Assembly (NCBI GenBank): GCA_032252755.1
Contig: JAVUPY010000059.1
Span: forward strand, 1-64,000
Direction of reading: 5' to 3'
DNA from: Terriglobia bacterium
GTDB lineage: Bacteria; Acidobacteriota; Terriglobia; Terriglobales; Acidobacteriaceae
DNA length: 64,000 nucleotides
Shown here: piece after piece, positions 6,351-11,276 of the stretch
Layout of the letters: each line of letters begins with the position of its first letter
Position numbering within the stretch: the stretch's first letter is position 1
Made by a program: the position numbers and the translations under genes
Notes under the pieces: generated by a model
Seen by the model: only the letters and a program-made list of their open reading frames with translations
Told to the model about the DNA's origin: nothing
Databases searched by the model: none

Positions 6351-6550
6351 TGCTGCAAGCAGTATCGCAAATGAACTGTTGTTCTGCGATAGTTGGCGCG
6401 ATCAGGCCACCCATCCCATAAATTAACTAAACTGATCCTCAGGCGACATCCATAAGCGACTTATCCCACCATCCCCAAATCACCTAATACTTTCCGCCAC
6501 TTCCATTAATTCTTCCGCTCAATTCCCGTTTTGGGAAAACCTTGTCAAGA
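6351..6550. other. AT-rich gene-free spacer
   Basis: This stretch is clearly more AT-rich than the surrounding genes and contains no supported reading frame. It leads into the promoter-terminator module at 6551-6697. The composition shift suggests acquired or regulatory DNA. Confidence 0.4.
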
Positions 6551-6697
6551 GACATTTTTTGTCATTTTCTCCGTAACTCCATCATTCCACTCGAAATATA
6601 GTTTTCAGAAAAATGTCACACTACCCCCCACCCAACCTGCTATCCTATAAGTAGAGTAGAAGAAACCAAGGCGTCCGCCATCGCGGGCGCCTTTTCC
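6551..6697 (+). promoter_or_regulatory. Putative promoter followed at once by a terminator/attenuator
   Basis: A T-rich tract with GACATTTTTTGTC is followed by a C-run (CTACCCCCCACCC) and TATCCTATAAG at about 6641-6651, a plausible -10 region. Only about 20 nt later comes a strong GC hairpin with a T-run. Transcription from here would yield a very short RNA unless read through to the Cys/His gene at 6960. I associate this arrangement with that gene family in other acidobacteria, from memory only. Confidence 0.45.
6668..6697 (+). terminator. Rho-independent terminator-like hairpin
   Basis: GGCGTCCGC (6670-6678) pairs with GCGGGCGCC (6683-6691) over a four-base loop and is followed by TTTTCC. 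It has the form of an intrinsic terminator on the plus strand yet no gene precedes it, so it probably attenuates transcription from the upstream promoter-like sequence. Confidence 0.65.
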
Positions 6698-6715
6698 GTT
6701 TCAGGGAGAGATCTG

Positions 6716-6760
6716 GGTGCCCCATTCTTCGCGCACGCCTTTCGCGCGAAGGGTGGGGCC
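6716..6760. repeat. Intergenic palindrome, family A
   Basis: GGTGCCCCATTCTTCGCGC is inverted at GCGCGAAGGGTGGGGCC. The outer arms match the copies in the str operon and at 21142. Confidence 0.75.
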
Positions 6761-6833
6761 GTTCTGTAGTTGCGGATTGCGGATGGCGGATTGCGAAAGT
6801 AGTTGCTAGCTAATGGTCAATTGCTTTCCTCGC

Positions 6834-6852
6834 ACCTCGTACCTCGCACCTA
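6834..6852. repeat. Short GTACGAGG-family repeat (single arm)
   Basis: The sequence cgcacctcgtacctcgcacc is one arm of the repeat that forms full hairpins at 17176-17275 and 25443-25507. Only one arm is present here. Confidence 0.5.
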
Positions 6853-6959
6853 CTCCCTTGATTACAAAGCACTTCCTTTTACTCGCCTGAAAACATTGAA
6901 GTTAATCTAATTTCTAGCCTAACCCGCTGATTCCAAAGAATCGGCAGGGGGGAGGGGTC

Positions 6960-7766
6960 ATGCCATCAGTACCACTTTGCCAACACCTCAAGACCAACGG
7001 AAAATCCTGCGGCTCGCCCGCACTCAAGCATCGTCGCTTCTGCTACTTCCACGACGAGTCCCGCAAGCGCCGCCGAGCCTCCGCCAAGCGCGCCAAGGCG
7101 TTCGTCACCCGCTACAACGCCCTCAACATGCCCATCCTCGAGGACGCCAACGCCGTCCAGGTCGGACTCATGGAAACCATAGACGCGCTCATCGACGCCC
7201 GCATCACCGAGCGCCAGGCCGGACTCATCCTCTACGCTCTTCAAACCGCCAGCGCCAACCTCAAACACACGACGTTTGAAACCGACGCCCCCAAACCCGC
7301 CGAACCCTGGGCCGCCGAACTCCTCACCCTCCTCCGCGGCCTCCCCAAGGACGAAGACAAATCCGATGCCGCACCAGACACCTCGTCATCTCGACCGGAG
7401 CACGCGCTAGCGTGCGTAAACACCTTGTCATCTCGACCGGAGCACGCGCCAGCGTGCGTAGTGGAGAGACCTGCATCTCCCTCCGCGTCCTCTGCGTTAA
7501 TCACTCCTTCCGATGGCACGATGGCCCGATCACCCGATGGCACGATCCCCCGCATTCACGCCGCAGCCCTCCAAAAAGTCGAACTCGTCATTCCGAGCGG
7601 AGCCGCGACTGGTCTTTCCGCGTCGCAGTCAATGCGGTCGCGGCGCAGTCGAGGGACCTGCATTTCTCCCGCACACATTTGCACGTCATTCTCCTTCGCG
7701 CCCTCTGCGTCAATCAGTTCTTTCAATGGCACGATGGCCCGATCACCCGATGGCACGATCCCTTAA
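6960..7766 (+). CDS. Cys/His-rich small-protein family with repeat-derived C-terminal extension
   Basis: The first ~140 residues form the recognisable part: MPSVPLCQHLKTNGKSCGSP and FCYFHDESRK give a C7-x9-C17-x10-C28-x2-H31 pattern that looks like a small zinc-binding knuckle. It is followed by a basic KRRRASAKRAKAF segment and a helical region ending near YALQTASANL. I recognise this as a multi-copy acidobacterial family of unknown function. From about residue 141 the frame translates dispersed DNA repeats (SSRPEHA, DGTMARSPDGTIP twice), so the native protein probably ended near there and lost its stop. ATG at 6960 follows GGGGGGAGGGGTC. Nucleic-acid binding is inference. Confidence 0.65.
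   Translation: MPSVPLCQHLKTNGKSCGSPALKHRRFCYFHDESRKRRRASAKRAKAFVTRYNALNMPILEDANAVQVGLMETIDALIDARITERQAGLILYALQTASANLKHTTFETDAPKPAEPWAAELLTLLRGLPKDEDKSDAAPDTSSSRPEHALACVNTLSSRPEHAPACVVERPASPSASSALITPSDGTMARSPDGTIPRIHAAALQKVELVIPSGAATGLSASQSMRSRRSRGTCISPAHICTSFSFAPSASISSFNGTMARSPDGTIP
7427..7762 (+). repeat. Two tandem copies of a composite dispersed repeat
   Basis: Units at 7427-7550 and 7587-7762 share the same order of modules: GTCAT(C/T)(C/T)CGA..GG, then ACCTGCAT, then CCTCTGCGT(T/C)AATCA, then ATGGCACGATGGCCCGATCA with CCCGATGGCACGATCCC. A partial third copy of the first module begins at 7385. They fill the 3' part of the 6960 reading frame. Confidence 0.75.
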
Positions 7767-7853
7767 CTTGCTTAAAACTCCACCCAACCTCTACACTGAT
7801 CCATTCCTTTCCTAGTTCAACCGCGCGGGGGGCACTCCGCGCGGGGAGGATAC

Positions 7854-9902
7854 ATGCGGCGGTTCTCATTCCTGATAGTTTTTGTTTTACCCCTGTTTGC
7901 CCTCATCTTTCCCTCCTGCGGCGGCGGCACGCCCAAAGGCAATGTCGTCGCTTCGGTGACCGTGCCCCTCAATACAATCTCCATGAACAGGGGCGATGTC
8001 GTTACTCTCTCTCCCTCGGCAGCCGATAAGAATGGCACCAGCGTCCTCGCCGATTTCACATATTCCTCCGCCAACACCGCCCTGGTCAGCGTCTCGCCGA
8101 ATGGCGCCATGTGCGCTGGCACATGGGACAGCAAATACATCGTTTGCACCAAGGGCCAGAGCACTGGCAGCACCACCGTTACGATCAGTGCAAGCGGGGT
8201 CTCGACAACCGTCACAGTCTATGTGCATGCCACCGTGGACCGGGTTGAGGTTGATCCCATTGGCGCGGATTGCGTGTCTTCCGCAGGCACCCTGCAATTG
8301 ACGGCAAAAGCCTATACCGACGATCCCACTGCCTGCACCGGCGGCCAGACCCCTTGTGAAGTCCCGTCTGACTCGCTCGGAAACTTCGTCTGGAGCGCGG
8401 ATAACACGTCTGTCGTCACCTTCGACAACAACACCAATATCGGTCTTGCCACCGCCGCCACACCGGGCCTCACGAAGGTTCACGCCAGCATCGCTTCCAA
8501 CACCAGCCCCGGCGTTAACTTCACCACCTGCCCCATCGTTTCCTTGAGCATCGCGACTACGAGCGGCGGGACCGCCCCGTTCAGCCTCGCCAAGGGCGGC
8601 ACGCAGTCCCTGGTCGCCACCGCTATCGATTCCAAGAGCACCACTCTCACGAACATCCCCGTAACTTGGGTGTCGTCGCAGAGCTTCGCGCTTTCCATCG
8701 CCCCCGTGGCCTCTACGCCGCAGACCGCCACTGTCACCGCGAACAATCCGGGTACCGCGAGTTTCCTGGCTACTTGCACTCCGCCAAGCTGTAATGTCGG
8801 ATTGAACCCGATCTACAGCAACTTGATGGTTGGGAGCCTGTCGGGTACATCGAATGACACCCTTTACGTCGCGAGCCGCGACTCGTTGCAACTGGTTCCC
8901 ATCGATCTCGCCAATAACAATTCAGTCGGAACCGCAATCACCCTGGGCCAGAAGCCGAATTCGTTCGTTATGTCGCGCGACGGCAACTTCGGTGCGCTGG
9001 GATCCGATTCCAGCAGCGCCATGTCGCTTACCACTTCGTCGAACACCGTCACTAACCTGAATGTCGCCGGCACCATGTTGGGCTATTCGCCTGACAGTTC
9101 CCTCCTTGCGTTTCAGGCGCCTGACCTCGCCGGAGTCGAACTCCTCGGCTCCTCCAACCTTGTGCTTGCCGCGGAATTGCCGTACGACACCAGCAATACC
9201 AACGTGCGCGTCGGCTTCACCCCCGACTCTCACACCGTGTTCATGACCCAGGGCACCAGCCAGTTCGCATACTGGGATCAATCCACGCAGCCACAGACAC
9301 TGACGCTCAGTGGACCTGCGAACGACGTCAACTTCATGGCGACGGGACACGCCGGCTACCTCGCTGGCGGCGCGCCGGGACAGATCACTGCTCGCGCAAC
9401 CTGCGACCCCACCGCCCAGGTTGACAGTAAACCTGCGTCGAACCCGCAGTTCGTTCGCGCCATACCGGACGGCTCGGGAATGCTGGTGCTGGATCCGCCC
9501 AACATCATCGTGCTCTCGCCGGTCTCAGGCGATAACGCCTGCCCCAGCAACGTCCAGTCCAGCGAAAACTCCTACACCACTGGAGTCTCAAACCCAACCC
9601 AGTTCTTCGTCACGCCGGATAGCTCGAAAGCCTTCATCACCGACGGCAGCAAGACCGTGTACATCTTCAACCTGAGTTCGCACACGACCACACCGGTCAC
9701 ACTCAGTGGAGTCAACGCCACCTTCGAGGCCGCCATCACCCTCGACAGCCAGTTCGCCTACATCGGCGCTGATGACGGCAAAGTGCACAAGATCGATCTG
9801 ACATCCGGCACCGACGTCGGCCAGATCGATCCGGGCCTCAAGCAGACCGACAACACCACCCGCGCTCTGCCACACTTCGTGGAATTAAAACACAAGAAAT
9901 AA
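7854..9902 (+). CDS. Large lipoprotein with Ig-like repeats and a beta-propeller-like C-half
   Basis: This 682-residue protein starts at ATG 7854 behind a perfect GGGGAGGA site. A lipoprotein signal ends FALIFPSC-GGG, with the lipidated Cys at residue 22. The N-terminal half (about 30-320) contains Ig-like Big2-type segments such as VPLNTISMNRGDVVTLSPSA and GTSTVTIS-like strands. The C-terminal half (about 335-680) has repeated blocks of the kind SRDGNFGALGSDSS, TPDSHTVFMTQ and TPDSSKAFITDG, typical of YVTN/WD40-like surface propellers. It is probably exported to the outer membrane or cell surface with a binding role. No partner gene is adjacent. Confidence 0.8.
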   Translation: MRRFSFLIVFVLPLFALIFPSCGGGTPKGNVVASVTVPLNTISMNRGDVVTLSPSAADKNGTSVLADFTYSSANTALVSVSPNGAMCAGTWDSKYIVCTKGQSTGSTTVTISASGVSTTVTVYVHATVDRVEVDPIGADCVSSAGTLQLTAKAYTDDPTACTGGQTPCEVPSDSLGNFVWSADNTSVVTFDNNTNIGLATAATPGLTKVHASIASNTSPGVNFTTCPIVSLSIATTSGGTAPFSLAKGGTQSLVATAIDSKSTTLTNIPVTWVSSQSFALSIAPVASTPQTATVTANNPGTASFLATCTPPSCNVGLNPIYSNLMVGSLSGTSNDTLYVASRDSLQLVPIDLANNNSVGTAITLGQKPNSFVMSRDGNFGALGSDSSSAMSLTTSSNTVTNLNVAGTMLGYSPDSSLLAFQAPDLAGVELLGSSNLVLAAELPYDTSNTNVRVGFTPDSHTVFMTQGTSQFAYWDQSTQPQTLTLSGPANDVNFMATGHAGYLAGGAPGQITARATCDPTAQVDSKPASNPQFVRAIPDGSGMLVLDPPNIIVLSPVSGDNACPSNVQSSENSYTTGVSNPTQFFVTPDSSKAFITDGSKTVYIFNLSSHTTTPVTLSGVNATFEAAITLDSQFAYIGADDGKVHKIDLTSGTDVGQIDPGLKQTDNTTRALPHFVELKHKK

Positions 9903-9931
9903 ATCAGGCGGGTGAATAGCGAAAAAGGTAA

Positions 9932-9956
9932 GCCTCGACTGAAGTCGAGGCTTTTG
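9932..9956. terminator. Bidirectional hairpin terminator
   Basis: AGCCTCGACT and AGTCGAGGCT form a near-perfect 10-bp stem with a GA loop, followed by TTTTG on the plus strand. It separates the convergent lipoprotein gene and nusB. Confidence 0.75.
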
Positions 9957-9984
9957 CCTTTGTGATCCTTCGTGTTCTTCGTGG

Positions 9985-10401
9985 TTAAACCCGCTGTTCC
10001 AGTTCTTTCGCAACGCTGTCTAGCACTCCGTTGATGAACTGGACCGACTCCGGAGACGAGTAGCGCCGAGCAATTTCCAGCGCTTCGTTGATTACGACCG
10101 GACGCGGAGTTTTGGGGAAGCCAACAAATTCCGCCACACCCGCACGAAGAATGTTGCGGTCCACCGTGGCCATCCGATCCATCCGCCAGTGCTGCGCGTG
10201 CTTTTCAATCAGCGAATCGATCTCTTCGCGTCGCTCCATCGCTGTCCGGAACAAATCCTGCGCGAAACCTTTGACCGCATCGTCGAGGTCTTCCCGCTCT
10301 TCCCAGAATGTCTTCTCAACCTGCTCCGAAGATTGCCGCGCCATGTCGGATTGGAACAGCATCTGCAACGCCAGTTCCCGGGATTTCCGCCGCGTGCCCA
10401 T
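9985..10401 (-). CDS. nusB: Transcription antitermination factor NusB
   Basis: This 138-residue all-helical RNA-binding protein joins the rRNA antitermination complex with NusE (S10). The ATG at 10401 gives MGTRRKSRELALQMLFQSDM, the family start, behind AAGGTGAAA. VDRNILRAGVAEF and PRPVVINEALEIARRYSSPESVQFINGVLD are conserved NusB blocks. The longer frame starting at 10506 runs inside ribH and is not used. It lies 8 bp after the lumazine synthase stop, the common ribH-nusB order. Confidence 0.96.
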   Translation of the reverse strand: MGTRRKSRELALQMLFQSDMARQSSEQVEKTFWEEREDLDDAVKGFAQDLFRTAMERREEIDSLIEKHAQHWRMDRMATVDRNILRAGVAEFVGFPKTPRPVVINEALEIARRYSSPESVQFINGVLDSVAKELEQRV

Positions 10402-10409
10402 TTTCACCT

Positions 10410-11276
10410 TCACTGTGCCGGCGCGCTCTTGGCCTGCTTGCGCGACTTCCTTCCCGTTTTCTTCTTCAACACCGCCATCTCGACCGCCGCCAGCGCCGCT
10501 TCCCAACCCTTGTTGCCGGCCTTCAGACCCGCACGATCGATTGCCTGCTCGAGCGTATCGCAGGTAAGCACGCCGAAACCGATCGGCACGCCTGTCTCCT
10601 GCGTCGCCTGCCCAATACCACGAGTGACCTCGTTGGCAATGACTTCGTAGTGCAGCGTATCCCCCCGCAGCAGACAGCCGAGTGTTACGACTGCATTGTA
10701 CTTGCCGGTTTCGGCCAGCGTCCTTGCCGCACCGGGAATCTCGAATGCTCCCGGAACGCGAACGATCTCAATATGCTCGCGCTTCACTCCTGCCTGCTTC
10801 AGCGCGATCAGAGCCCCGGAAAGCAGCCGCTCGGTGATGAACGAGTTGAATCGCGAAACCACCAGCGCAAACTTCATTCCCGCGCCACTCACTTCGGCCT
10901 CGACGTTCTTGTGTCGCCAGTCCTCGTTGTACGAAAACACCGCAAGGTGCCCAAGAGCCAGCGGCAACTCGAGCGTGAACATCCGCGCACCCCAGTCGTG
11001 GTCCGCGATCTCCTCCGCAACCTTGAAGCTGTGCTCTTTCGCGTACTGGTACACGGTATCCGCATTATCGACTTCAATCACCAGGTCGGCATTCGGAAAT
11101 CCTTCCCCCATGCCGATCTCAACGCCCGACTCCGGCGCCTCAAACTTGATGCCCTTGCTCCGCCGCCCATCCCAGGATTCACCAATCGCAAACCCGAGCG
11201 CCCGAAAATACCCATCGAGCACCTTGTAGTCCTCTTCGCGTTTGCAGAAAAACAATCTATGAAATGTCTTGATCAT
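10410..11276 (-). CDS. ribH: VOC-domain / 6,7-dimethyl-8-ribityllumazine synthase fusion
   Basis: The 288-residue frame has two parts. Residues ~130-272 are lumazine synthase, which condenses 5-amino-6-ribitylaminouracil with dihydroxybutanone phosphate in riboflavin synthesis: MKFALVVSRFNSFITERLL, VPGAFEIPGAARTLAETGKYNAVVTLGCLLRGDTLHYE and PIGFGVLTCDTLEQAIDRAG. Residues 1-~122, from MIKTFHRLFFCKREEDYKVL through the alternating beta-strand pattern to HDWGARMFTLELPLALGHL, resemble a glyoxalase/VOC half-barrel. Known RibH proteins begin near the second part. No stop separates them; an internal ATG at MKFALVV would remove the first RibH strand. A basic KKKTGRKSRKQAK tail is present. It is coupled to nusB. 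Confidence 0.85.
   Translation of the reverse strand: MIKTFHRLFFCKREEDYKVLDGYFRALGFAIGESWDGRRSKGIKFEAPESGVEIGMGEGFPNADLVIEVDNADTVYQYAKEHSFKVAEEIADHDWGARMFTLELPLALGHLAVFSYNEDWRHKNVEAEVSGAGMKFALVVSRFNSFITERLLSGALIALKQAGVKREHIEIVRVPGAFEIPGAARTLAETGKYNAVVTLGCLLRGDTLHYEVIANEVTRGIGQATQETGVPIGFGVLTCDTLEQAIDRAGLKAGNKGWEAALAAVEMAVLKKKTGRKSRKQAKSAPAQ

Follow-up and report, generated by a model that had tools for sequence, protein, structure and literature searches.

A dispersed leader with promoter-like region, hairpin and repeat units in one acidobacterial family, a few copies of which precede a gene for a zinc-knuckle-like protein

The leader and the Cys/His reading frame of the window

The DNA analysed here (the window) is a stretch of 64,000 nt of contig JAVUPY010000059.1, and positions 6527-6959 of it are one copy of a recurrent leader that precedes a Cys/His open reading frame (ORF). 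The leader opens with a conserved promoter region, which is followed by a GC hairpin, repeat units and a G-run, and then by the ORF (Table 1). The latter occupies 6960-7766 and encodes 268 amino acids, of which only the first ~122-125 align with relatives; on reading, the part from about 7380 onwards consists of dispersed repeat phrases of its own genome. The hairpin is made of the arms AAGGCGTCCGC and GCGGGCGCCTT around the loop CATC, with a T-rich tail after it. A second palindrome lies at 6717-6762, between the hairpin and the repeat block, and belongs to a phrase type common among the copies.

Table 1. Features of the leader and the Cys/His ORF in the window, together with Y1_Tnp genes of the same genome that lie near a right-end copy of the element
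Feature	Position	Strand	Basis and remarks
AT-rich promoter region of the type A leader	6527..6656	+	79% identical to the hand-made type A query; putative promoter function
TTGTCAAG motif in the promoter region	6542-6549	+	Position checked in the sequence
-10-like TATCCT	6641-6646	+	22 nt before the hairpin; position checked in the sequence
Early intrinsic-terminator-like hairpin and T-rich tail	6668..6697 (stem-loop 6668-6693)	+	Sequence, terminator scan, recurrence, stem covariation
Repeat-unit block, e.g., TAACCCGCTGATTCCAAAG, ending in the G-run	6867..6957	+	By reading; homologous blocks before the ATG in other genomes, also without the gene
G-run GGGGGGAGGGG	6947-6957	+	End of the repeat block, directly before the ATG
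Conserved part of the Cys/His protein	6960..7325	+	Seven clear paralogs, alignment, predicted structure (four helices)
Unconserved rest of the ORF	7326..7766	+	Outside the region aligned by relatives
Y1_Tnp genes 0.9-3.8 kb from a right-end copy (window's genome, G000)	C88:42515, C70:135065, C42:54586, C10:82107

The first-pass annotation of this DNA had placed a hairpin about 20 nt past a plausible -10 box, with no gene between the two, a Cys/His gene ~260 nt further downstream and AT-rich DNA unlike its surroundings upstream. All of this holds: TATCCT and the hairpin are separated by 22 nt, no ORF of at least 60 aa is listed between 6351 and 6959, the Cys/His ORF starts at 6960, and the GC content of 6527-6660 is 39.6% against 57.6% for the window, which puts it among the lowest 0.1% of 134-nt stretches. 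The repeat block and G-run directly before the ATG (6867-6957) are a feature absent from that annotation; the G-run GGGGGGAGGGG may be a ribosome-binding site.

Taken by itself, the hairpin of the window is not beyond chance; terminator-like sites in the stretch number 5, compared to 3.0 +/- 1.5 in shuffles, and a scan with the sigma-70 consensus does not pick the window promoter, its single match being inside the Cys/His ORF. It is recurrence that makes the module real, since the type A query that defines its promoter region matches 12 further copies in the genome, and the hairpin returns at the same spacing with changed, complementary stems.

The gene family and the dispersed copies of its leader

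The protein had been associated in the first pass with a multi-copy acidobacterial family, and such a family is indeed found. In the genome of the window (G000, 96 contigs) there are eight clear copies of the gene, that of the window included, the other seven being 35-54% identical to the window protein over the matched part. Within a sample of 297 genomes of the phylum, the gene occurs in 23 (its own genome included), 22 of which belong to the family of the window, and the single carrier outside this family is one match with an E of 5.5e-9. The five public database matches of the protein are likewise Acidobacteria or Terriglobia. A phage or plasmid gene was considered and rejected, as no homolog of the window protein was found in the plasmid and phage collections and none was confirmed in viral contigs.

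The knuckle residues of the window protein are C7, H9, C17, C28 and H31, after which comes a helical part; these residues, together with S19 and P20, are invariant in 29 aligned members. The predicted structure consists of the knuckle and four helices (mean pLDDT 88.6, pTM 0.49), for which Foldseek returned no match at E <= 0.001 against solved structures (best 0.41), and the best match of a sequence search in PDB had an E of only 0.36. Two Pfam families, DUF5763 (PF19067) and zf-primase (PF09329), share with it a Cys/His knuckle of ~37 residues but leave the helical part outside the match, with scores below their cut-offs: 19.9 and 21.6 bits for the first (gathering 26.3), to which 7 of the 29 family members match at E <= 1, and 15.9 and 17.4 bits for the second (gathering 28.8), to which 21 of the 29 match weakly (best E 6.7e-4). 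No curated Pfam match accounts for the Cys/His protein, in which no catalytic domain is recognisable and which looks like a nucleic-acid-binding zinc knuckle. A different small ORF (MSGRTRWTGG...), with no PHROGs match, comes directly after a hairpin-less type A leader elsewhere in the genome (L099/L059, G000:C51:69033 onward); its tail, PEPWVEELLTALRALP, is similar to AEPWAAELLTLLRGLP in the window protein.

The leader is far from confined to the gene. The type A query finds 14 matches in G000 at E <= 1e-9, which correspond to 13 copies including that of the window (one copy is interrupted and counted as two halves), and only 5 of these 13 stand at a Cys/His gene. The type B query matches 14 copies along its whole length, of which 3 stand next to a Cys/His gene, and parts of six others. 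On reading the copies, five leader types (A-E) can be told apart, with a promoter-like box and a GC hairpin in most copies of types A-D and no hairpin in type E, and the same kind of right end in all five. A sequence-only model of this right end (the repeat block) has at least 56 matches in G000, a few of which are second-strand matches of the same site, at least 26 in G021, which belongs to another genus, at least 6 in G006 and at least one each in G004, G018 and G024. As RNA, the right end in the window's genome gives a consensus energy of only -1.03 kcal/mol, with one of nine pairs changed on both sides; therefore it is sequence, not RNA structure, that is conserved there.

In the window, as in many copies of the gene from other genomes, the repeat block stands before the ATG; in six copies of G000 (L002-L007) the right end is instead the 3' end of the ORF. 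At two loci, L158 and L161, the two blocks follow one another without an intervening gene, which suggests an ancestral order of leader, repeats, gene and repeats. An integron-like attC site was also considered, as some units read GCCTAAC, but other copies break this pattern.

Several copies have themselves received insertions. A type A leader is split by 3.2 kb in L093 (~7818-11037; G000:C42), where the inserted DNA has a transposase-like ORF, presumably IS1595-like, and other ORFs. An insertion sequence that may be IS481-like immediately follows a GTCCGATAAC-type motif within two elements of G000, L117 and L053, and is also found downstream of the right end in L165.

Hairpin pairing and co-occurrence of leader and gene

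In 42 of the 48 copies with a matching promoter pattern, the hairpin is found at a near-constant distance, two of these hairpins (L111 and L121) being counted by eye; the exceptions are L006, L007, L049, L051, L058 and L148, and two further loci, L001 (read directly) and L152, are outside the promoter pattern. Such a hairpin at that place occurs in 96 of 4000 random control windows of the same loci. The sequence of the stem differs between types and genera and its pairing is kept: in 20 distinct stems (from 30 hairpin rows, one of which, L144, is a base short and was included) 170 of 180 cells are paired. This fraction, 0.944, compares to a mean of 0.61 and a maximum of 0.733 over 1000 shuffles of the arms, so that the covariance analysis suggested in the first pass comes out in favor of a stem maintained by changes on both sides.

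The module was to be refuted if hairpin and C-run were not conserved beside other copies of the gene; this outcome did not occur, and the module is conserved there, though not at every gene leader. In its own genome the GC hairpin is present in 6 of 8 gene leaders, the remaining two (L006 and L007) having a longer palindrome instead; it is also found at gene leaders of G015 and G017 (L044 and L025), and in a related genus, g34, each of the 18 gene leaders analysed (without L201 and L203, near-copies of L200 and L202) folds at the hairpin place with -14 kcal/mol or better. The C-run, on the other hand, is only loosely kept among copies, and several leaders elsewhere have no clear GC hairpin but have the repeats and the G-run, examples read in other genomes being the gene leaders L019, L027, L033, L034, L038 and L042. 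One sequence motif tried, found at 14 of 49 gene copies and in 93 of 2800 control windows, was too strict.

Gene-less leaders of g34 reach -13 kcal/mol in only 11 of 19 cases, in contrast to the gene leaders of that genus (p 0.003). These 19, which exclude the near-copies L243, L252 and L256, comprise 16 drawn from the best-scoring matches of the promoter model (30 loci) and three from the L207 locus. Since -13 kcal/mol is reached by 59% of random 60-mers, little weight attaches to energy alone, and only the contrast between gene-bearing and gene-less leaders is used here; the hairpin therefore tends to accompany the gene, as expected of an attenuator. The anatomy of an attenuator is there, with a GC stem-loop and T-run between promoter and ORF and conserved pairing, the exceptions being in other genera, and it is plausible that the early hairpin acts as an attenuator or as the source of a very short RNA.

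Gene-less copies of the leader co-occur with the gene. The promoter-only model (R2), 94 nt long and built from the g34 promoter, finds at least 26-69 copies each in G126, G192, G184, G261 and G245, and none in G097, G143 and G231, species of g34 without a detected gene, where weak copies may be missed. Over g34, g36 and g38, copies (at least 2-69, all copy counts per genome being lower bounds) are present in 15 of 15 gene-positive and in 0 of 6 gene-negative genomes (Fisher p 1.8e-5), with G224 and G134 scored as gene-positive on partial protein matches; this p value and that of the hairpin contrast overstate independence because the genomes are related. The same holds without the five genomes that seeded the model (10 of 10 versus 0 of 6). 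In a wider set, matches at E <= 0.01 occur in 12 of 21 gene-positive and 2 of 15 gene-negative genomes (G005 and G022, both weak), and nothing is found in the other 9 of the 21, zeros that may hide weak copies. The right-end model behaves alike, with matches in 6 of 13 gene-positive and 0 of 28 gene-negative genomes. Even in the absence of the gene the architecture is tightly spaced, all 19 gene-less copies studied having the G-run 134-177 nt downstream of the -10, as opposed to 23.6% of control windows.

Comparison of loci among relatives shows how leader and gene may part. At L207 of G184 promoter, hairpin, repeats, G-run and gene are all present, whereas the same place in G126, G192 and G261, with flanks 82-92% identical, has kept promoter, repeats and G-run but has no Cys/His gene and no evident hairpin. 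The leader has therefore either outlived the gene or been there before it. Sister species of g34 share other gene loci too, and likewise the gene-less copies that were compared; G277 has two copies, 87% identical, of a ~1-kb unit made up of the leader and most of the ORF. One shared site (L239/L249) differs in that only its flanks can be aligned (at 90-91%), not the element itself. Among the loci compared, neither new insertions nor empty sites or target duplications were detected, and two candidate differences between G126 and G192 both turned out to be in aligned regions. Two other repeats lie near these elements: one of ~100 bp with many copies per genome in g34 (L207, 1926-2023 and 3466-3566), and one of ~200 bp that matches itself in both orientations (L206, 3299-3505, with similar stretches in L205 and L208) near several gene loci of the genus.

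What the element could be

The best reading of the above is that this part of the window is a copy, with ORF, of an element interspersed in the genomes of one acidobacterial family; in a few copies the element is the leader of a zinc-knuckle gene. Judged from its sequence, the element consists of a putative promoter (TTGTCAAG ... -10), an early intrinsic-terminator-like hairpin ~22-30 nt past the -10, repeat units and a G-run; this anatomy, its conservation and the co-occurrence of gene-less copies with the gene are what the data show. Transcription would start near 6653 and most transcripts would stop near 6697, after ~45 nt, read-through past the hairpin giving the Cys/His mRNA, whose G-run would serve ribosome binding; with such an early stop and a read-through mRNA the gene would be attenuated, as had been proposed. 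The Cys/His protein could then bind the repeats, in DNA or in the leader RNA, and feed back both on its own leader and on the copies without the gene; the latter would need it in trans in the manner of non-autonomous derivatives of a master copy. That we are dealing with an attenuated zinc-finger gene whose leader doubles as an interspersed repeat family dependent on the gene product seems to us an evenly balanced proposition. Less probable, and put forward tentatively, is a two-part system in which a non-enzymatic zinc-knuckle protein has its own gene under the same leader as dozens of promoter-terminator-repeat elements, these being maintained or copied in trans with host machinery.

We favor seeing the dispersed copies as non-autonomous mobile derivatives rather than as a maintained network of sites. 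In such a functional network, which would be no parasite, the gene-less copies would be selected, fixed sites, either giving tiny terminated RNAs or serving as zinc-finger DNA sites in chromosome organisation or regulation. Their presence at shared loci in sister species, the persistence of promoter, repeats and G-run without the gene at one locus in three species and the tight G-run spacing of the gene-less copies all speak for it, but against it stand the loss of the hairpin in many gene-less g34 copies (8 of 19 are above -13 kcal/mol), a copy number ranging from at least 2 to at least 69 in that genus, and an orientation that, on reading g34 copies without the gene, is about as often into the next gene as away from it. 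On these grounds we regard such a network as possible yet rather unlikely.

The derivatives need not depend on the Cys/His protein if the element is an ordinary repeat of the MITE or REP kind, mobilised by a transposase unrelated to it, and the gene a passenger captured behind one copy. We consider this improbable, in spite of the fairly sharp ends, the internal-deletion forms and the location of 4 of the 6 Y1_Tnp genes of G000 within 4 kb of a right-end copy (Table 1). Y1_Tnp (PF01797), the one family covered by the transposase search, went undetected in G261, G134 and G073 (at least 69, 40 and 11 copies) and was found in G097, G143 and G231, where no copies were; the copies are tracked by the Cys/His gene instead of by Y1_Tnp, and no target-site duplication was seen in those read. 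A RAYT was accordingly rejected as the mobiliser, Y1_Tnp presence not following that of the element. As for a chance hairpin, e.g., the terminator of an adjacent gene, that happens to lie next to an ordinary small gene, the lack of a clear excess of terminator-like sites in the stretch would be in line with it; recurrence, spacing, compensatory changes and co-occurrence are not, and chance is rejected by the first and third of these as a most improbable account.

In bacterial repeat families with a known cognate protein, this protein is usually a transposase. Here, the one protein observed to follow the repeats resembles a nucleic-acid-binding zinc knuckle, and its own gene has the repeat as leader. 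The element is a case in which one can test how a gene without enzymatic product might sustain tens of copies of its own control region, and it explains an intergenic feature that recurs in abundant, little-studied soil bacteria.

Among known systems, the closest in kind are those of interspersed repeats with an associated gene, such as REP/BIME repeats with RAYT (Y1) transposases (PMC2817692, in the part available). As far as the excerpts of this work and of PMC3733652 go, the resemblance lies in many gene-less interspersed copies, a low-copy gene tied to the same repeat and loci shared among relatives; REPs, however, are palindromes of 20-40 bp (PMC3733652), whereas the units described here are ~270-600 bp long with promoter, terminator and repeats. 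The protein, moreover, has no Y1 domain, and Y1_Tnp genes do not track the elements. MITEs and other non-autonomous IS derivatives also have short, dispersed, gene-less copies beside a few with a gene, but there is no recognisable transposase here, families other than Y1_Tnp being judged from the copies read, in which none was noticed as part of the element; by reading, the ends show at most a very short inverted match, CCCA/TGGG, in types B and D. With transcription attenuators the leader shares a terminator between promoter and ORF, 22-30 nt past the -10, and differs from them in that no leader peptide or alternative antiterminator was identified and that the leader itself is dispersed without its gene.

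The class would be that of interspersed repeats with a cognate protein gene, and a categorically new system may be involved. The first-pass annotation had called the module a candidate undescribed dispersed system; dispersed it is, and a literature search at the level of listings (DUF5763, acidobacterial dispersed repeats and related terms) returned no description of the element, nor was any mention of DUF5763 found in the library searched. Rfam has no match in the window and none at E <= 0.5 in 18 g34 loci. Its best match in 15 loci of the window's genome, Acido-Lenti-1 with 31.9 bits (cut-off 37), is at L114 1805-1848, inside a gene-less element.
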